Below, piece by piece: positions 8,601 through 57,005 of a stretch of 64,000 nucleotides of DNA (position 1 is its first letter; each line of letters opens with the position of its first letter). Origin of the DNA: Tunturiibacter gelidiferens (lineage in GTDB: Bacteria; Acidobacteriota; Terriglobia; Terriglobales; Acidobacteriaceae); assembly GCF_013410115.1 (NCBI RefSeq), contig NZ_JACCCV010000001.1, positions 372,001 through 436,000 on the forward strand. Reading direction: 5' to 3'. A program made the position numbers and the translations under genes. A model generated the notes under the pieces. The model did no database searches, was not told the DNA's origin, and saw nothing but the letters and a program-made list of their open reading frames with translations.

Positions 8601-10285
8601 CGGCGGGGACGGGCGGCTCGGGCGGACAGTCGGTTGGAGCGGGTTTGTCTGGTGGAGCTGCACCGATTCCGGGGGCGACGGCGGACTACAACTTCCTTGA
8701 AGGTACAGGGACAGTTGTTACCGACAACAGTGGCAATGGCAATAACGGCACGCTCGGCGCGGGTGCATTGTCTCCTGCATGGACTACTGCGGGTCTGAGC
8801 TTCAGCGGGCAGGAGCAGGTGGCTTTGCCGCCGGCGCTGAACAGCTCGGAGACCTTCTTTATGGGGGTTTATCTGCAGCCTATTACTACCTCCATTCCGG
8901 GCAACTCTTTCCCGATGCTGGTGGGCTCGAGCCTCGGCGGCAATGGTCTGAACCTGCTGTATGACTACGAGAATAACGGCACCCTCTCGCAGGATACGTA
9001 TATTCTCGCACCTACGATCTATGGCAGTAATGCAGTGTTTACTGGGGTTCAGAATCTGGTGTCGGGATTCCACGTACTGACTTATGTGCTGGGAACTCCG
9101 GGAAGGACAGCGGATCAGATCTATATCGACGGAGTGCAGTCCACTTCGTATGATCCTAGATATCATTTCAACGCTGCTGGACTTCAGACCTCGGGAAACC
9201 TGTTTCTGGGGTCGAGCAATACGGGGATTTTTGGAAGTTCGGGGTTGAACGGCACCTTCTATCGAATGGTGACGATGCCTACGAATACGCTGACGGCCGC
9301 GCAGGTGCAACAGATAAGCAACCAGATAAGGAACGATGTTGCGAGCCGAGGCGTGAACACGTCGCCGGCGAAGATCAAGCAGGGAACTCCAACGCTGCAC
9401 TGCATCGGCGACTCGATTACGGCAGGGCTGGGTACAACGAATCCCTACTGCTCGCTTTTGAGTCTCAGCAATCAGCCTGCGTACTCGATCGATAACTGGG
9501 GAATTGTTGGTGTCAGCTTGCAGGCGATCGATGCGTCGGAGAACAATCGGGTCGGCCAGCTTTGCGAGTCGAGTCGGGGACCGAGTGTTGCGCTGGTGTT
9601 TCTTGGCACCAATGACTTCCTGAACCCGGTGCAGACGCCTACTGGGGTGATTCCAAGCCTGGCCGGCGAGGTACAGACGCTGAAGGGCGCAGGGTGTCGG
9701 GTGTTTGTCGGTACGATGCTTTCGCGATCGGGCAATGACGGGGCAGGTGGCTCCTATGATGCAGATAAGGACGCGTATGACTCGCTGATTCTAACGGGAG
9801 CGAAGGCGTTCGGAGCCGATGGTGTGGTGGACTTCGCGGCCAATCCGCTGCTGGGTGCAGATGGTGCGACAAGCAATTCGACGTACTTCCAGGGGGATGC
9901 AATTCATCCGACGCAGGCCGGTCAGCAATTGCTCGCAAATGCTGCCAGCAATGCGCTGAACTACTACTTCGGATACAACCAGATGAATCCGCATGTGGTG
10001 AGCGCGGGCAGTTACACGATGCAGGCCGGAGACGGATACATTACGGCGAGCCCTACAGCGAACCAGACGCTGACGCTGCCGGATTGTACGGGCCAGAGCG
10101 GCGCGGTGTACACGGTGACGAACCTGCAGTCTGCTTTCACGGTGGGTGTGATTGCGGGCAGCTCTGCGCAGCTGATCAATGGACTTGCGGCGAGCACGGT
10201 GGTGCCGGTGCCGGCGAACGGGTCGTTGACGCTGCGGGATGTTCCGAATCCGAAGACGGTTTCGGGATGTCATTGGGAGATGTAG
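5642..10285 (+). CDS. giant tail-fibre-like protein with signal peptide, LamG-like and SGNH hydrolase domains
   Basis: 1547 residues, ATG 5642 behind GAGGAGAACAACG. Domains in order: basic N-terminus plus hydrophobic stretch ending AAAAQA at about residue 34, a classical signal peptide; an Ig/carbohydrate-type beta domain at about 40-150 of a kind I associate with acidobacterial proteins; a fibre repeat at about 180-222 (AGDTMTGPL and DKHYVD motifs, as in phage fibres); a long Gly/Thr/Asn-rich beta region; a LamG/concanavalin-like domain at about 1010-1235; an SGNH/GDSL esterase domain at about 1250-1435 with GDSIT, GTND and DAIHPT blocks; and a C-terminal beta sandwich. The hydrolase would cut surface polysaccharide or remove acetyl groups. 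A signal peptide is unexpected for a cytoplasmically assembled fibre: the protein may be exported, or the segment may be a membrane anchor. Confidence 0.75.
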   Translation: MHWKPKGWTLIGMLLLAVPGAMTVMKVAAAAQATTPSTIATTQVTDTIYRGDGTLANGSVIVSWQAFTAASGQAVPSGTTSATITNGALSLALVPNAGSTPIGTYYTAVYHLDDGSVSREFWVIPVSQAPVQVSTIKSTVLPTSVAMQTVSKNYVDTAIAAAVTGHPLDSSNPFVEKAGDTMTGPLVLPGDPTATTQAADKHYVDVSVAGVAAGLGQKVSTLPSATQAVVQPVGTQLQVNNLNGDEYASQYVNGLGGNGITNALTSPDCASGCDVKVEHSYPVGENYFPSTWNSGAGGTHVEDDRNGARRDTYLNPTGSSAGEADAGQVIDVTSTRSSQAEVAAGGSTDPSSYALSIRHQGLTGGSNLFPEAIGSVPYFKTNYNAMNVAGSYNTMGQHILDAQTIDCYGVGDCLIGSQFINSSGGFRDEADEGAHPFDIQIQEDFNVFQGVCSAGCSPGSTVVTAGSVMAGGTQGEGRFLIDKNPAKTISIGVITGGTGQVNSGPGPGATFSGTNFPVSVFLATAVTIPSQANNAAPGPVTIAIATTGLTTGFATNTAAVASPNGVACLTDSPANGGPTNYEMANYSVVDGTHLKLTLNKPHQAGATIAFGGLCGYGLEQTVDTVGAIRQVFPVIGSYSTTGLYYAGGLTSLVAGQGTGSGYLNVTMQIAAIARNNGVVTVTTAGSLPVDVNGLSMNISGVADQSYNGNFVVTTTGPNALTFAQAGANSTSTGGNVSKLTGGYVLYPMAEVLGVFDTATKSVDGQLTLAPNTVSWAVNDALEEPHYYQQRVSGDVEFIGQTTPRPTLAQTAGVEYEGNVGPGLSGWTVTNAVPASSYLGNGGTHTVPGFAYVAQGIWQRTMDVQAGEQSVFSVHCNSHGCGRWNSGYDLFDLDSNVGVDSMSFQPTTSTLQMNLRGSSYQFSPQAFTAGTINAGTVNATTLNGAVGAAQLPLFGASGTSHSRGAVPDPGTTAGTTRYLREDGTWSVPAGTGGSGGQSVGAGLSGGAAPIPGATADYNFLEGTGTVVTDNSGNGNNGTLGAGALSPAWTTAGLSFSGQEQVALPPALNSSETFFMGVYLQPITTSIPGNSFPMLVGSSLGGNGLNLLYDYENNGTLSQDTYILAPTIYGSNAVFTGVQNLVSGFHVLTYVLGTPGRTADQIYIDGVQSTSYDPRYHFNAAGLQTSGNLFLGSSNTGIFGSSGLNGTFYRMVTMPTNTLTAAQVQQISNQIRNDVASRGVNTSPAKIKQGTPTLHCIGDSITAGLGTTNPYCSLLSLSNQPAYSIDNWGIVGVSLQAIDASENNRVGQLCESSRGPSVALVFLGTNDFLNPVQTPTGVIPSLAGEVQTLKGAGCRVFVGTMLSRSGNDGAGGSYDADKDAYDSLILTGAKAFGADGVVDFAANPLLGADGATSNSTYFQGDAIHPTQAGQQLLANAASNALNYYFGYNQMNPHVVSAGSYTMQAGDGYITASPTANQTLTLPDCTGQSGAVYTVTNLQSAFTVGVIAGSSAQLINGLAASTVVPVPANGSLTLRDVPNPKTVSGCHWEM

Positions 10286-10358
10286 TTGGTTGCAAGATGG
10301 CGCGGCCTCGTTGGGTGACGGGGCTGCGCCTTCAGTTTTTCTGGATGAGGTTTGTGGA

Positions 10359-11864
10359 ATGGGTGATGCTCAGCGGGATGTCGAGGAGCTACTGAAGCTG
10401 GGCAAGTGGATGGATGCGAAGCCAGCGGGTTTGGTGAAGGTAGCTGCGGGTTGGTTGAAGGTTCGGGACCGCGAGGGTGTAGAGCGGCCGTTGCGGGCCA
10501 ATGCAGTGCAGAGGGCGTTTGAACGCGAATGCGGACGACAGAATATCGTTCTGAAGGCCAGACAGATGGGAATTACGACCTGGGTGGCGGGACGATTTTT
10601 TTTGAAGACTATTACGGCTCGCGGTGTGATGACGGTGCAGGTGGCACAAACGAGAGAGGCGGCGGAGGGGATCTTTCGGATGGTGCAGCGGTTCTGGGAG
10701 TGTCTTCCGGAGGAGATGCGGGAGGGTGTGTTGCGGCGGAGCAAGGCGAATGCGGGGCAGATGTGCTTTCCGGCTTTGGATAGTGAGTTTCGTGTCGTGA
10801 GTGCTGGAGACGAAAATGCTGGTCGTGGGTTGACGATACAGTATCTGCACTGCAGCGAGGTGAGCCGTTGGCCGGGAGATGCGGGAGCTACGCTGGCTGG
10901 GCTTCGGGCGGCGCTTGCTCCTGGGGGCGAGATGGTGATGGAGTCTACGCCGAATGGAGCTTATGGATGCTTCTACGAGGAGTGGGGGCGGGCGCTGGAG
11001 TTGGGAGATGGGACGCATTCGGGTAGTCATCGGGATGGCGGCGTGGTGCGGCACTTCTTTCCGTGGTGGATGGAGGAGGCTTATGTGGCGGCGCCTGTGG
11101 ATGCGCTGCGGGAGGATGAGCTTCGACTGGTGATGGCACATGGTTTGACGGCGCGACAGATGGGGTTTCGCAGGGGGCTGGAGGCTAGTTATCGGGGGCT
11201 GCGGTCGCAGGAGTTTGCGGAGGATGCGGAGAGCTGCTTCAAGGCTACGGGCGAGTGCTGCTTTGAGGTGGAGGCTGTCGAGGGACGGCTGGCTTCGGTT
11301 GGGGAACCTTTGGAGGTGCGGCGGGGTGGAGCGTTACAGGTTTGGCTGCCTCCGATTGCGGGGAAGGAATATGTGGTGGCGGTGGATACTGCCGGGGGTG
11401 GGGCAGATGGGGACTTCGCGGCGGTGCAGGTGATCGAGAGGGAGTCCGGGCTGCAGTGCGCGGAGTTGCAGCAGAGGCTGGGGACGCTGGAGTTGGCGAG
11501 GGTTTCGGCGGAGCTGGCGAGGGAGTATGGCGGAGCGGTGATTGCGGTGGAGAGGAATAATCATGGAGCTGGTGTGCTTGCTTATCTGGATAGCGTGGAG
11601 CGGTATGCGCGTGTGTATGAGCAGGGCGGCGTTGCGGGTTGGTTGACTACGGCGGGATCGAAGCCTGGGATGGTGAGCCGGATGGGAGCTTTGCTGGTGG
11701 AGTCGCCTGGGATGTTCTTTAGTAAGCGGCTGCTGGGGGAGTGTCGGACGTTTGTTGCTATGGCTGGGGGGAGAACTGGGGCGGTGAATGGGGCTCATGA
11801 TGATTGCTTGATGGCTATGGCAATTGGGCAGGTGGTTCGGGCGGAGTTATTGGGGAAGAGATGA
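10359..11864 (+). CDS. phage terminase large subunit
   Basis: 501 residues from ATG 10359 (GAGG 8 nt upstream); a longer frame from 10239 overlaps the fibre gene and is rejected. The ATPase half has KARQMGIT (P-loop-like, near residue 65) and a region LTIQYLHCSEVSRW in place of the usual acidic Walker B, a variant I associate with some terminase-like families. The nuclease half shows an RNase H-type pattern: AVDTAGGGADGDFAAVQV (first Asp), AVERNNHG (Glu) and a final AHDDCLMAMAI (Asp). It would package DNA into heads through the portal coded downstream. No small terminase lies next to it. The stop is directly followed by an inverted-repeat element. Confidence 0.85.
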   Translation: MGDAQRDVEELLKLGKWMDAKPAGLVKVAAGWLKVRDREGVERPLRANAVQRAFERECGRQNIVLKARQMGITTWVAGRFFLKTITARGVMTVQVAQTREAAEGIFRMVQRFWECLPEEMREGVLRRSKANAGQMCFPALDSEFRVVSAGDENAGRGLTIQYLHCSEVSRWPGDAGATLAGLRAALAPGGEMVMESTPNGAYGCFYEEWGRALELGDGTHSGSHRDGGVVRHFFPWWMEEAYVAAPVDALREDELRLVMAHGLTARQMGFRRGLEASYRGLRSQEFAEDAESCFKATGECCFEVEAVEGRLASVGEPLEVRRGGALQVWLPPIAGKEYVVAVDTAGGGADGDFAAVQVIERESGLQCAELQQRLGTLELARVSAELAREYGGAVIAVERNNHGAGVLAYLDSVERYARVYEQGGVAGWLTTAGSKPGMVSRMGALLVESPGMFFSKRLLGECRTFVAMAGGRTGAVNGAHDDCLMAMAIGQVVRAELLGKR

Positions 11865-12071
11865 TGTCCTACCGGACGGCCCACTGCGCGTGGGGCGGCC
11901 ACTTCGTGGCTTGTGTACCTTGTTTCGGTGAGTGATCGGTTGTGGGCCTCGCGTTGCTCGGCGCTGGCTGATTCCGGCCATCGGCCGGACCGAAGATGAT
12001 CGGAGCGCCAAGACCGGCATACGCGTTACGAAGTGACCGCCCTCCGCGCAGGAGGCCCGTCCGGCAGGACA
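11865..12071. repeat. inverted-repeat intergenic element, copy A
   Basis: About 207 bp, starting TGTCCTACCGGACGG directly after the terminase stop and ending CCCGTCCGGCAGGACA in opposite orientation. Each arm contains two small hairpins: CCCAC/GTGGG and GCCAC-TTC-GTGGC on the left, CCTCC/GGAGG and TTAC-GAA-GTGA on the right. Near-identical architecture occurs at 37973-38166 and one arm at 55992-56046. Stem sequences differ between arms and copies but pairing is kept. Confidence 0.8.
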
Positions 12072-12091
12072 CGGGTTATTCTGTTGCTGGG

Positions 12092-12967
12092 GTGTTCGGC
12101 TTGGCGGTGTTGGCGGTACAGGCGATTAGAAGGATGCGGGGCGGGGCACAGAGCCAGCTGATGCTGGGAGCTGATGGCAAGCTTTGGGTGGTGAAGTTTC
12201 AGAATAACCCGCAGGATGTGCGGGTGCTGGCGAATGAGCTGATCGCAACACGACTGGCAGCAGCAGTAGGGCTGACGGTGCCGAAGAGCGATGTGGTCGA
12301 GGTTACCGAGTGGCTGGTGGCGAATACGCTGGATATGTTCGTCGAGATGCCGAAGGGGCAACGAGAGCGATATACGGCAGGGTTGCAGTTTGGGTCGCAG
12401 TTTGTGGGTGGGTTGATGCCTGGGCAGGTGGTGGACTATCTGCCGGAGCAGCAGCTGGACGAGGTGAGGAACCTGGCGGAGTTCGCGGGAATGTTGTGCA
12501 TCGATAAGTGGGCGGGGAACTGTAACGGGCGCCAGGCGGTGTTTGAGAGGAAGCCTCGGGAGAGGAAGTACCGGGCGACGTTTATCGATCAGGGGTTTTG
12601 TTTCAACGCGGGAGAGTGGACGTTTCCTGATTCGCCGTTGCGCGGGGTTTACCAAAGGAACCAGGTGTATGCCCGCGTGACCGGGTGGGAGAGCTTCGAA
12701 CCCTGGCTGAGCCGGGTGGAGGCGATGGAGGCGGGGACGCTTTGGGAGATCGCAGAGGCGGTGCCCCCGGAGTGGTATGGCGGGGATACGGATGTGATTG
12801 AGCGGCTGATGGAGCAGATGTTGAGGCGGAGGCTGCGAGTGAGGGAGTTGATCGGGGAGTTTCGGGATTCGAACAGGGAGCCATTCCCGATGTGGGCGTC
12901 GGGGAAGAAAATTGTGGTGCCGCGGCAGTTTGCTGAGATCAGTGGAGTGGGAAAATTTGTAATGTAG
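12092..12967 (+). CDS. HipA-like kinase family protein
   Basis: About 291 residues. The frame is open further upstream, but that part translates the repeat element; a GTG at 12092 is chosen, with 12107 also possible and no strong ribosome binding site at either. RRMRGGAQSQL, then VVKFQNNPQ (ATP-binding lysine) and LANELIATRLA match the N-lobe of the HipA_2-type kinase domain. The catalytic region reads IDKWAGNCNGRQ, followed by a metal-binding IDQG. HipA proteins are Ser/Thr kinases acting on translation factors; the substrate of this subfamily is unknown to me. It is paired with a DUF3037 gene 31 nt downstream, a neighbour arrangement I recall from many genomes. A role in phage-host conflict is inference. 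Confidence 0.75.
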   Translation: MFGLAVLAVQAIRRMRGGAQSQLMLGADGKLWVVKFQNNPQDVRVLANELIATRLAAAVGLTVPKSDVVEVTEWLVANTLDMFVEMPKGQRERYTAGLQFGSQFVGGLMPGQVVDYLPEQQLDEVRNLAEFAGMLCIDKWAGNCNGRQAVFERKPRERKYRATFIDQGFCFNAGEWTFPDSPLRGVYQRNQVYARVTGWESFEPWLSRVEAMEAGTLWEIAEAVPPEWYGGDTDVIERLMEQMLRRRLRVRELIGEFRDSNREPFPMWASGKKIVVPRQFAEISGVGKFVM

Positions 12968-37972: not shown

Positions 37973-38166
37973 TGTCCTGCCGGACGGGCTCCCTGCGCGG
38001 GAGGCGGTCACTTCGTGACTTGTATACCGCTTCGCCTGGTCCTCGCGTTGCTCGGAGGGAAGATCGTGCCGACCAGCGAGAGGACCTACGCTGCATATCC
38101 TGCCGAGACCGGTACACGCGTCACGAAGTGACCGCTCCGCGCGTAGCGGGCCCGTCCGGCATGACA
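37973..38166. repeat. inverted-repeat intergenic element, copy B (dnaA 3' end)
   Basis: About 194 bp, from TGTCCTGCCGGACGG to CCCGTCCGGCATGACA, ending 6 nt from the dnaA stop. The left arm has CTCCC/GGGAG and GTCAC-TTC-GTGAC hairpins; the right arm has GTCAC-GAA-GTGAC and CCGCT/AGCGG. Stems differ from copy A yet pair equally well. Confidence 0.8.
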
Positions 38167-38171
38167 GGGGT

Positions 38172-39599
38172 TTAGCTCAGCGTCTCCATCAGCTTGTTGA
38201 TGGTGCGGTTCAGGTCCTTGTCAGCCCGGCGCTGTTCGTCGATCTTCGAGATCGAATGCATCACGGTCGTGTGGTGCTTACCGCCAAACTGCCGCCCGAT
38301 CTCGGGCAGGGAAGCCTCGGTCAACTGCTTGGCCAGAAACATCGCGATCTGACGCGGCACGACGATCTGGCGGGAGTTGTTCTTCTGCTTCAACTCCGCG
38401 ACCCGCATGCCGAACTGCTCAGCCACAGTGCGCTGAATCGTCTCAATCGTAATCTTGCGGACCTGCGTATCGATGAACTGCTTCAGGCACTGCTGCGTTA
38501 CGGCAAGCGTGATCTCGACGCCATGCATGCTGCACCAGGCGATCAGCCGCACCAGCGCGCCCTCAAGCTCACGCACGTTGGTCCGCACGTTCGAGGCGAT
38601 AAACATCGCGACATCAGTGGGGAGCTGGGTCTGTTCGCTTTCGGCTTTCTTCTGCAGGATCGCGACTTTGGTTTCGAGATCGGGCGGTTGAATGTCGGCG
38701 ATCAGGCCCCACTCAAAACGTGACCGCAGGCGATCTTCAAAGTCGGCGAGTTCTTTCGGAGGCCGGTCGCTGGCAATGACAATCTGCTTCATGCTCTCGT
38801 GCAGCGTGTTGAAGGTATGGAAGAACTCCTCCTGGGTACGCTCCTTGCCGGCGAGGAACTGGATGTCGTCGATCAACAAGACGTCGACGTTGCGGAACTT
38901 GTCCCGGAATCCGGTCATCTTGTCGTAGCGGACCGAGTTGATCATCTCGTTGGTGAACTTTTCGCCGCTGACGTAGCTGATAGAGGCGTGCGGCTGCCGG
39001 CGCTTAACGTCGTGGCCGATCGCGTGCATCAGATGGGTCTTGCCCATACCGACGCCGCCGTAGAGGAAGAGCGGGTTGTAGGCCTTCGAAGGCCGTTCTG
39101 CCACGGCCTGAGCCGCTGCCGATGCAAACTGATTGCCGCTTCCGATGACGAAGGCGTCGAACTGGTAACGCGGGTTGAGCTGCGAGGCTGCGCTCCAGTC
39201 AAATCGCGCCTGCTCGGGCGTCGGCCCCGATACTGAGTTCGTCGATCCGCCGAGGCGCTGCTTGGGTGCGTTCTGGCTGTGGCTCGGCACAGGCGCAAAA
39301 CCGCCGTCTTCCCGGACCTTGGGCGCGCGCGGGTCCTGCTCGGGTGTGGTGAACGCGACCGACTCGACGTCCAGTCCGAGGTTGTCAATAGCTTCCTGGA
39401 TGAGGTCGGCGTAGCGATCGCCGATGTGCTGAAAGTCCGTGGAGGGAATTCGCACGAAGAGCTTTTTGCCCTCAAGATGTGAGAACCGTGTCGGCTTGAG
39501 CCAAGTCTCGTAAGACTGGCGGTTGATCTTCTTCTCAAGCGCAGCCAGAATACGAACCCAATAATTCAATACGGCGGTAGCCGTCGGAACGAATGACAT
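38172..39599 (-). CDS. dnaA: chromosomal replication initiator DnaA
   Basis: 475 residues. Domain I at about 1-90 (LEKKINRQSYETWLKPTRF), a linker rich in Ser/Pro/Arg to about 145, then the AAA+ domain III with GGVGMGKTHLMHAIG (Walker A) and LLIDDIQFLAGKERTQEEFF (Walker B), and the C-terminal helix-turn-helix with GGKHHTTVMHSISKI. It binds 9-mer boxes at the origin. ATG at 39599 with AAGGAAACTAAAG upstream. It sits alone; dnaN lies about 4.7 kb away on the same strand. Confidence 0.97.
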   Translation of the reverse strand: MSFVPTATAVLNYWVRILAALEKKINRQSYETWLKPTRFSHLEGKKLFVRIPSTDFQHIGDRYADLIQEAIDNLGLDVESVAFTTPEQDPRAPKVREDGGFAPVPSHSQNAPKQRLGGSTNSVSGPTPEQARFDWSAASQLNPRYQFDAFVIGSGNQFASAAAQAVAERPSKAYNPLFLYGGVGMGKTHLMHAIGHDVKRRQPHASISYVSGEKFTNEMINSVRYDKMTGFRDKFRNVDVLLIDDIQFLAGKERTQEEFFHTFNTLHESMKQIVIASDRPPKELADFEDRLRSRFEWGLIADIQPPDLETKVAILQKKAESEQTQLPTDVAMFIASNVRTNVRELEGALVRLIAWCSMHGVEITLAVTQQCLKQFIDTQVRKITIETIQRTVAEQFGMRVAELKQKNNSRQIVVPRQIAMFLAKQLTEASLPEIGRQFGGKHHTTVMHSISKIDEQRRADKDLNRTINKLMETLS

Positions 39600-54804: not shown

Positions 54805-54805
54805 A

Positions 54806-54821
54806 TGTTCCACGTGGAACA
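54806..54821. promoter_or_regulatory. parS site 3
   Basis: TGTTCCACGTGGAACA directly after the rsmG stop. A frame from 54805 translates this site as MFHVEQ, so an annotated ParA N-terminus starting so would be an artefact. Just beyond lie ATTTCCACA and TTCTCCACA, each one or two mismatches from a DnaA box. Confidence 0.9.
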
Positions 54822-54969
54822 AAAGATTTCCACATCGCTTCTCCCGAAAGCCTTCAATCCAGACGCCGAAAACACGTATCCCACAAGTTCTCCACAGCCC
54901 TTGCGGGTTCTGCACAGACCAGCCGCCATTGCCACGCCGCTCGCCTCCCGATACCCTGCAACTACCGCA

Positions 54970-55932
54970 ATGACGACTGAACAGCTCACTCCCAAGCCTG
55001 AAGACGCAGCGCAAAAGCCCGCAGACCCGGAATCTTCGCCGAAGCCTTCCAAAGTCATTGCCGTCGTCAATCAAAAGGGCGGAGTCGGCAAGACGACCAC
55101 GGCCATCAACCTCGCAGCTGCCCTCGCCCTCGAAGGCCTCAATACCCTTCTCATCGACTGCGATCCGCAGGCCAACTCCACCGGCGGACTTGGCTTCGCC
55201 CGCGCCAAGGATGGCGAGGAAGCCCGTCTCAGCATCTACGACATCCTGGTTGGCCAAACCACCATCGCCGAAGCTCTTCTCTCCACCGAAATCGACACAC
55301 TGAAGCTCGTTCCCAGCAGCAAAAATCTCATCGGCGCCACCATCGAGCTGATATCCCTCGACCGCCGCGAATACAAGCTCCGCGAAGCCATAGAGCCCAT
55401 CCGCGCCAATTACCCCTTTATCCTCCTCGACTGCCCCCCAGCTCTCGATCTGCTCACCCTCAACTCCCTCGTCGCCGCTGACAGCCTCCTCGTCCCCATG
55501 CAGGCCGAGTACTTCGCCCTCGAGGGCATCTCGGAGCTCATGAGTACCCTGGACCGCGTCGGCCAGGCATTCAACCCCGGCCTTGTTCTCGAGGGCGTCC
55601 TCCTCACCATGTACGACGACCGCACGAACCTCTCCCAGCAAGTCTCGGAGAATCTGCAAGCCTTCTTTACGGACAAGCTCCTCAAGACCACGATCCCCCG
55701 CAACATCCGCCTCGCCGAAGCCCCCAGCCACGGCAAGCCCGTCTCGCTCTACGACCCCAGGTCTCGCGGCTCGGAGGCCTATCGCGAGTTGGCCCTTGAA
55801 CTCCTGACTCGCAATAAGATGGACAGCCCAGAAGAGAAACGCAGAAAAAGGGCAGCCGCAGCGGCCGCAAGCTCTCTCAAGTCCTTCAACAAACTCGAAA
55901 AGAAGACCCGCTTCTGGCAGTCCAGCAAATAG
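54970..55932 (+). CDS. parA: chromosome partitioning ATPase ParA
   Basis: 320 residues from ATG 54970; the longer frame starts inside a parS site. A Ser/Pro/Glu lead of about 30 residues precedes the deviant Walker [22 protein letters not shown], then [15 protein letters not shown] and [20 protein letters not shown]. It moves the chromosome origin with ParB bound at parS. The C-terminus is basic and helical ([11 protein letters not shown]). parB follows after a gap of 149 nt holding a repeat arm. Confidence 0.95.
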
Positions 55933-55991
55933 AACAGAACTCACACCGAACAACGGGAGGGATCACTACAGATCCGCGAAGCCACAACAGG

Positions 55992-56046
55992 GTATACAAG
56001 TCACGAAGTGACCGCCCCACACGCAGTGGGCCCGTCCGGCAGGACA
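55992..56046. repeat. inverted-repeat intergenic element, solo right arm (copy C)
   Basis: GTATACAAGTCACGAAGTGACC ... CCCGTCCGGCAGGACA corresponds to the right arm of copies A and B. Its hairpins are GTCAC-GAA-GTGAC and CCCAC-ACGCA-GTGGG. It lies in the parA-parB gap; no left arm is present. Confidence 0.75.
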
Positions 56047-56081: not shown

Positions 56082-57005
56082 ATGCCAACCGTCACCGCAG
56101 ATCCCAAACGCCGCGCCTTGGGCAAGGGCCTTGAATCCCTCCTCCCCCAGCGTCCCACGCCTGCTCCTATATCTCTCTCCGCAGCGGCAGCACCTGCCGC
56201 AGAACCAACCGGCAAGCCGCTCGAGATCTCCCTGGACCAGATCGAACGCAACCCGTTCCAGACCCGCAGCCACTTCGACGAGGCCAAGTTAGCGGAGCTG
56301 GCGCAGTCCATCACAGCGTCAGGCGTAGTACAACCTATTGTCGTGCGGCCACTTAGCGGAGGCCGCTATCAGCTCATCACCGGCGAACGCCGCTGGCTGG
56401 CCAGCAAAAAGGCAAATAAAAACACCATCCCGGCTATCGTCCGTCAGGTCTCAGACGAGCAAACGCTCGAGATGACCATCGTCGAAAATCTCCAGCGCGC
56501 CGATCTCAACCCCATCGAGCAGGCTCGCGCCTACCAGCGTCTCAGCAACGACTTCAAGATGACCCAGGAACAGATGGCCATCCGCACGGGCAAAGAACGG
56601 GCGAGTGTATCTAACTTCCTTCGTTTGTTACGTTTACCAGATTCTGTCCAGCAGAAAGTCGAGTCCGGCGACCTCTCCTTCGGCCACGCGCGCACTCTCC
56701 TCGCGCTCGATTCCCCCGAAGCAATCACTGCTGCCGCCCAAAAGGTCATCGCGCTTTCACTCTCTGTCCGACAGACCGAAAGCTACGTCCAGGGCCTCAT
56801 CAATCCCGAAGCTAAAGAGAAGAAGGAGTCGAAGGCCGACGCCCAACCCGAAGATCCCAACGTCCGCGAAGCGCAGGATCGTCTGCGCCGCTCCCTCGGT
56901 CTCAAGGTCCGCATCGAGGACAAAAAAGGCAAAGGCCGCGTCATCATCGAGTACTCCGGCCTAGAAGACTTCGACTCGATCCTCACCGCCTTAGGCGGTC
57001 AATAA
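56082..57005 (+). CDS. parB: chromosome partitioning protein ParB
   Basis: 307 residues. RRALGKGLESLLPQ near the N-terminus, EISLDQIERNPFQTRSHFDEAKLAELAQSI, GRYQLITGERRWLASK (the CTP-binding GERR box), and the helix-turn-helix TQEQMAIRTGKERASVSNFLRLL. A C-terminal dimer region RIEDKKGKGRVIIEYSG follows. It binds the parS sites upstream and slides as a CTP-gated clamp. ATG 56082; a small Ala-rich linker sits at residues 24-42. Confidence 0.96.
   Translation: MPTVTADPKRRALGKGLESLLPQRPTPAPISLSAAAAPAAEPTGKPLEISLDQIERNPFQTRSHFDEAKLAELAQSITASGVVQPIVVRPLSGGRYQLITGERRWLASKKANKNTIPAIVRQVSDEQTLEMTIVENLQRADLNPIEQARAYQRLSNDFKMTQEQMAIRTGKERASVSNFLRLLRLPDSVQQKVESGDLSFGHARTLLALDSPEAITAAAQKVIALSLSVRQTESYVQGLINPEAKEKKESKADAQPEDPNVREAQDRLRRSLGLKVRIEDKKGKGRVIIEYSGLEDFDSILTALGGQ

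Follow-up and report, generated by a model that had tools for sequence, protein, structure and literature searches.

This locus raises the question of why one inverted-repeat sequence, with hairpin stems that change on both strands, recurs beside a terminase gene, beside dnaA and between parA and parB. The window, meaning the whole stretch of 64,000 nucleotides that was analysed, lies in an Acidobacteriaceae genome of 5.29 Mb. Copy A is a full element at 11865–12071 that abuts the stop codon (11862–11864) of a terminase large subunit gene on the forward strand (10239–11864; phrog_2, E 2.4e-22). Its left arm (11865–11921, reverse strand) comprises three hairpins when read outward and its right arm occupies 12015–12071 on the forward strand. 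Copy B, also a full element (37973–38166), ends 5 nt short of the stop codon of dnaA (38172–39599, reverse strand; PF00308), and its arms were placed by covariance model at 37973–38029 (reverse strand) and 38110–38166 (forward strand). The best named relative of this DnaA was an Acidobacteriaceae metagenome bin at 73% identity.

Both copies were borne out at the positions given by a first-pass annotation, as were the neighbouring genes that it had named and the stem variants that it had quoted, which are locally complementary in the window copies. Its third copy, described as a solo arm, does contain an arm (55990–56046, forward strand, which is the C-rich one) whose three hairpins, H2, H1 and H3, are those of the predicted single-stranded DNA fold. 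The arm is not solo, however, but belongs to a half-element with a degenerate centre half-stem that runs from approximately 55946 to 56046 on the forward strand. This copy C lies in the gap between parA (54805–55932, forward strand; PF13614) and parB (56082–57005, forward strand; PF02195 and PF17762).

Family size and arm structure

A genome-wide blastn search returned 96 pieces on both strands, and an exact-pattern search yielded 52 matches in the present genome and none in the controls. From 59 arms a covariance model of the 57-nt unit was constructed, which gave at least 150 matches genome-wide. In the stretches fetched around these matches at least 199 arms were counted, a lower bound, making up 64 two-armed and 71 one-armed elements, so that the genome holds far more than the copies first noticed. 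No match was obtained when the window was searched against Rfam 15 at the gathering threshold or when plasmid and phage collections were searched with copy B, and searches of the open-access literature brought up no description of the family.

The arm is 57 nt long and holds three hairpins with stems of 4–5 bp, in the outward order H2, H1, H3, whose loops are mostly constant (GAA, GCGCA and GGCA) and whose stems are variable. In the present genome H2 takes the forms GTCAC-GAA-GTGAC, GGCGT-GCGA-ACGCC and others, H1 comprises five positions around the GCGCA loop and H3 is GTCC-GGCA-GGAC, with the motif CGTC confined to the foot and interior of H3. The outermost position of H1 is unreliable as a pair, being Watson-Crick in 126 of 198 arms, G-T in 34 and neither in 38. 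Each half of an element is about 100 nt in length and runs from a short half-stem at the centre (like CCGACCAACGGGAGGACC) through a spacer to the arm; two such halves, head to head, make up a full element of 172–225 bp.

When four arm sequences were folded as single-stranded DNA, two gave exactly the three hairpins and a third, the complement of one of them, gave these together with one further pair, while H2 of the right arm of copy A folded differently. Folding energies were unremarkable in comparison with shuffled sequences (z −0.03 to −2.27). In some arms (L044:6550–6648; G041 L288 and L300; G024 L038) a second hairpin of approximately 42 nt, with the core CAAACAGGTCTTCGTTTG, is nested within H1, forming a repeat inside a repeat.

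Covariation of the stems

In arm alignment A2 (57 distinct rows) the cells changed on both sides of a pair numbered 59, against 16.6 ± 2.8 after shuffling, and 95.2% of cells were paired compared with at most 54.5% when the partner was slid. Since variation is concentrated in few pairs, the pair-count and type-count measures did not rise above those of shuffles, being reached by 100 and 191 of 500 for A2 and by 434 and 466 of 500 for alignment A4. The H1 core was fully paired in 187 of the 198 parsed arms (one of the 199 was not parsed) against 55.9 ± 5.6 after shuffling. Outside the present genome covariation was found in all three hairpins. When 73 arms taken from other genomes were aligned, two-sided change was seen at 11 of 14 pairs and in 108 cells against 25.7 expected, each measure being reached by no more than 1 of 500 shuffles; the alignment was fitted to the structure and is hence biased towards it, and some divergent matches are truncated. 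The H2 stems of these arms include GTCAC, GCCAC, ACCAC, GGCAC, GTCAT, GTCAG and ATCAC, with matching partners, and the H3 stems include GTCC, GGCC and GCGC, the loops being mostly unchanged. The covariation reported from the window copies is therefore present above chance in larger alignments.

Within an element the two arms are almost independent in their variation (a shared core type in 20 of 63, expected 12.5, p 0.012), which indicates that the local hairpin is kept rather than a long arm-arm duplex; the duplex was accordingly dropped as a candidate for the conserved structure. No significant link was found between the type of H1 and that of H2 (p 0.05) or the loop (p 0.17) among 57-nt arms, and the type of H2 was linked to the adjacent bases. 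An attempt to infer the strand from G-U versus A-C mismatches was dropped, these being too few.

Stem changes at orthologous sites

Both flanks were located in a genome of the same species (G041) for 69 of the 135 sites, the rest lying outside the fetched stretches or being unmatched. Arms were compared at 63 of the 69, six being omitted because of a length difference greater than 60 or because fewer than 80 nt were left. After two arms with more than 10 gaps had been dropped, 98 were compared, of which five had an unreadable H1, leaving 93. The H1 core was unchanged in 75 of the 98. Two-sided changes to H1 were present in 8 of the 93 readable arms, affecting two pairs at once in seven arms and three pairs in one, and the new stems were types found elsewhere in the family; no arm exhibited a single compensated H1 pair. 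One-sided changes to H1 occurred in a further 10 of the 93, eight of them amounting to a stem broken in one genome. For H2, one single compensated case and two whole-hairpin replacements were observed. Substitutions excluding gaps amounted to 3.4% in the arms and 4.0% in the flanks (arm divergence is 5.8% if the gap columns of three nested insertions are counted), so the arms do not change faster overall and their changes are bunched. A largely different element occupied the orthologous site at L059, L080 and L139. Inversion was flagged at these three sites and dropped, since the aligned elements also differ much.

Because the H1 swaps always involve two or three pairs and lead to existing family types, they look like the transfer of hairpins between copies, and a comparison of the two genomes suggests that most recent two-sided H1 changes are probably copy-to-copy transfers of ready-made hairpins. 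The bunched stem changes fit gene conversion between copies; exchange between strains may be another source. Hairpin swapping can create covariation in repeat families, where covariation alone is thus no proof of selection. The first-pass annotation had held that compensatory change implies selection for structure; the covariation stands, but the step to selection is too strong for changes that, in eight arms, replaced two or three H1 pairs at once.

Covariation might even arise with no selection at all, if template switches inside hairpins, together with gene conversion among copies, sufficed to keep the stems paired. That all eight two-sided H1 changes span two or three pairs agrees with such a process, as do the whole H2 hairpins (two arms) and largely different elements found at orthologous sites and the lack of a significant link of H1 type with H2 or loop. 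It is judged unlikely, because one-sided changes are found (10 of 93 readable arms, eight with a broken stem) whereas incomplete pairing of the H1 core is limited to 11 of 198 arms, which implies that broken stems are removed or converted, and because stems differ between species while the loops remain mostly constant.

Gene context and arrival at gene junctions

Confident genes on both sides, as predicted by a simple codon-usage gene caller, were available for 127 of the 135 sites and lacking for eight. The 127 comprised 65 convergent, 51 tandem and 11 divergent arrangements. Stop codons facing a full element (n = 80) lay at a distance of 3–7 nt in 41 cases and of 12 nt or less in 61. Of seven convergent pairs tested, three had counterparts spanning both genes in relatives that do not carry the copy (two of the pairs in three genomes and the third in one). 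In these relatives the two genes nearly abut, which indicates that the element arrived where the genes meet. Target duplication was not seen by eye in 31 copies, nor at three diverged empty sites.

Seats behind stop codons and the small number of divergent regions occupied (11 of 127) are also what would be expected of RNA elements of 3' untranslated regions, acting as bidirectional terminators, mRNA stabilisers or translation brakes and kept at gene ends by selection. An arm lies in the parA/parB gap of three other genomes (G070, G060 and G074), as copy C does, and REPs of two species lie mostly less than 20 bp from 3' ends according to the excerpted text of PMC3733652. A role in RNA is nonetheless highly improbable. 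Half-elements within tandem gene pairs run with and against transcription about equally (14 vs 11), and a U-tract is absent after the last hairpin, T peaking at 0.57 at one position past the arm, a feature of flank composition that can be read in part as the stop codons of the facing genes. A strand-specific RNA role, moreover, does not predict the skew rule described below.

Half-elements and the strand rule

The "solo" arms belong to half-elements. A motif resembling CCGACCAACGGGAGGACC was recognised in 49 of the 71, at 39–43 nt before the arm in 45 and at 26–27 nt in the other four, and was unrecognised in 22. Skew is strong in the flanks of the half-elements, and 69 of the 71 carry the arm on the C-rich strand, with a mean flank GC skew of the arm strand of −0.265 (binomial p 2e-18). 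The rule was followed whatever the arrangement of the genes: 37 of 39 convergent, 14 of 14 (+,+), 11 of 11 (−,−) and 3 of 3 divergent. Removal of six halves bearing traces of a second arm left 63 of 65. In other genomes the rule was held by 30 of 36 solo arms, a set from which duplicates arising from overlapping loci were omitted and in which weak arms, whose partner was possibly missed, were included; the six that break it include the sole one from another genus. Full elements judged by the asymmetry of their spacers exhibited no polarity: those with a long right spacer comprised 7 negative and 13 positive, those with a long left spacer 7 and 6, 18 were symmetric and 13 of the 64 were left unassigned.

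Blocks of GC skew of approximately +0.2 to +0.4 and −0.2 to −0.35, each extending over tens of kb, are present in the window (1–64000) and in stretches of G041 (L271–L310), and the sign flips so many times that both form a mosaic. GC skew indicates the direction of replication only indirectly, and here it is a mosaic; if it does mark replication, the half-elements would point against the replication fork. The first-pass annotation had proposed structure in RNA or single-stranded DNA; of the two, DNA is favoured by the strand rule of the one-armed copies.

The same strand picture would result if half-elements were leftovers of full elements that lose one arm in a strand-specific manner. On the lagging strand the long central hairpin might, for instance, be cleaved or slip, and the arm that remains would in every case be the one with a given placement with respect to the fork. 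Halves tend to start at a constant point on the 3' side of the central loop (45 of 49 recognised), and REP singlets have been called remnants of doublets in the excerpted text of PMC3116915. Deletion remnants of full elements were found in G041 at three of the 69 sites, unrelated sequence being present at two, but these three deletions do not yield the standard half. A second-arm trace above the shuffle threshold was absent from 65 of 71 halves and present in all 64 full elements, and 23 of 28 half sites located in G041 were unchanged in length within 2 nt, the other five not all being resolved. Arm loss is regarded as a somewhat unlikely origin of the half-elements.

Distribution across genomes and viruses

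The arm was detected at E 1e-4 in 37 of 60 genomes of the genus. Across the class it was found in 22 of 299 genomes and 2 of 106 genera, all but one of the 22 lying within the genus; the family hardly extends beyond a single genus. Four genomes with two or three arms carry a full element after the terminase gene, as at copy A. Over window positions 10239–12964, the terminase exhibits 66–71% identity in element-bearing relatives and the gene past the element 85–91%. The element may have been phage-borne; the exact arm pattern gave no matches in IMG/VR and the arm was absent from the 15 IMG/VR contigs with a related terminase. Around parA of G074 (L238, 5366–7571) three arms belonging to a variant family are found among TGTTCCACGTGGAACA sites, which we take to be parS.

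Partner enzyme and mode of spread

The RAYT that was originally suggested as a partner was not encountered. PF01797 (Y1_Tnp) gave no match in the present genome, in a search whose control was positive for 5 of the 14 genomes. Twelve Y1 loci of the genus were fetched, and their retrieved flanks contained no arm. Matches to Y1_Tnp were obtained in 49 of the 60 genus genomes, including G041, where the arm nearest to the single match is truncated and about 2.5 kb distant. The Y1 match at approximately 2257–2508 of G041 L299 is without counterpart in the present genome, and a shared element is found about 4 kb away.

On balance the evidence leans slightly towards a non-autonomous REP/BIME-like family that spreads as single-stranded DNA coupled to replication, sits at gene 3' ends and is shuffled by gene conversion. 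The hairpins would be read by a nuclease or transposase acting on single-stranded DNA at the replication fork, and this fork-linked step would give half-elements one orientation relative to replication. Surviving elements would be those that landed between gene ends, after which exchange between copies would shuffle the hairpin alleles; the putative enzyme may have been lost from this genome. Spread as single-stranded DNA is favoured because the half-elements keep to the C-rich strand (69/71) whatever the gene direction. Fork-coupled reading is backed by the orientation of IS200/IS605 elements, which follows replication in the excerpted text of PMC5371812, and landing at gene ends by the 65 convergent among 127 sites together with the 41 of 80 facing stop codons at 3–7 nt.

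Several results weaken this explanation. The genome is without a Y1_Tnp match and no arm was found at the 12 Y1 genes. None of the 69 sites in G041 was cleanly empty, no recent movement was seen and target duplication was not apparent by eye. The skew is a proxy only, and mosaic, and 6 of 36 solo arms elsewhere break the rule. Finally, H2 in the right arm of copy A folds differently and the energy z-scores are unremarkable.

A bolder version, offered tentatively as possible but short of probable, would have an enzyme other than a recognisable Y1 transposase insert the monomers at forks in the form of single-stranded DNA, with the loops serving as the enzyme's code and the stems as exchangeable cassettes. 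Every monomer would then preserve the fork direction like a fossil arrow, and the whole set would record chromosome inversions. The near-absolute polarity of the monomers (69/71) provides a testable handle on the spread of REP-like repeats and on their seats behind genes, since it leads one to expect a single-stranded step coupled to the fork and an enzyme that reads the loops. New here are the cassette-wise change of H1 at orthologous sites and the strand rule of one-armed elements. The observation made in the first-pass annotation is confirmed and more interesting than described; its interpretation is partly supported.

Comparison with known repeat systems

REP, BIME and REPIN families are described in excerpts of PMC3116915 and PMC3733652 as many short palindromic units, forming head-to-head doublets, intergenic near 3' ends and bearing compensatory changes. 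The arm family is likewise high in copy number, intergenic, near 3' ends, arranged in inverted doublets and subject to compensatory changes. Unlike the REP/BIME unit of 20–40 bp with one palindrome, the arm is 57 nt in length with three hairpins, and the half-elements are locked to strand composition. GTAG REPs and REPINs with a RAYT differ further, since the GTAG foot is absent from the arm consensus, the present genome is without a Y1 match and 0 of 12 Y1 loci are flanked by an arm.

A likeness to CGTC REPs lies in the features given for these in the excerpt of PMC3733652, namely that they occur mainly as head-to-head dimers and are without a known dedicated transposase. The CGTC unit described there has one stem of 8–9 bp, an unpaired CGTC end and a short tail, whereas the present arm has three stems of 4–5 bp. 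The TIR repeats of TIRYT transposases and the repeats of class 3 Y1 proteins of Acidobacteria lie next to Y1 genes and are described, in the excerpts of PMC3733652 and PMC6006769, as inverted or as atypical structured repeats; the phylum is shared, the comparison being by description only, and the arm differs in being present at 0 of 12 fetched Y1 genes. Elements of the IS200/IS605 family, which transpose as single strands, insert into the lagging-strand template with an orientation that tracks replication (PMC5371812, in part) and have structured ends (PMC6006769, in part). The half-elements are similarly strand-polar, but a transposase gene inside is absent and the polarity is confined to half-elements.

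Terminal inverted repeats are shared with MITEs. An identity with integron attC sites was considered and dropped, the element being presumably of another kind. While it fails the tested defining features of the GTAG and CGTC REPs, the family works like a REP/BIME family.
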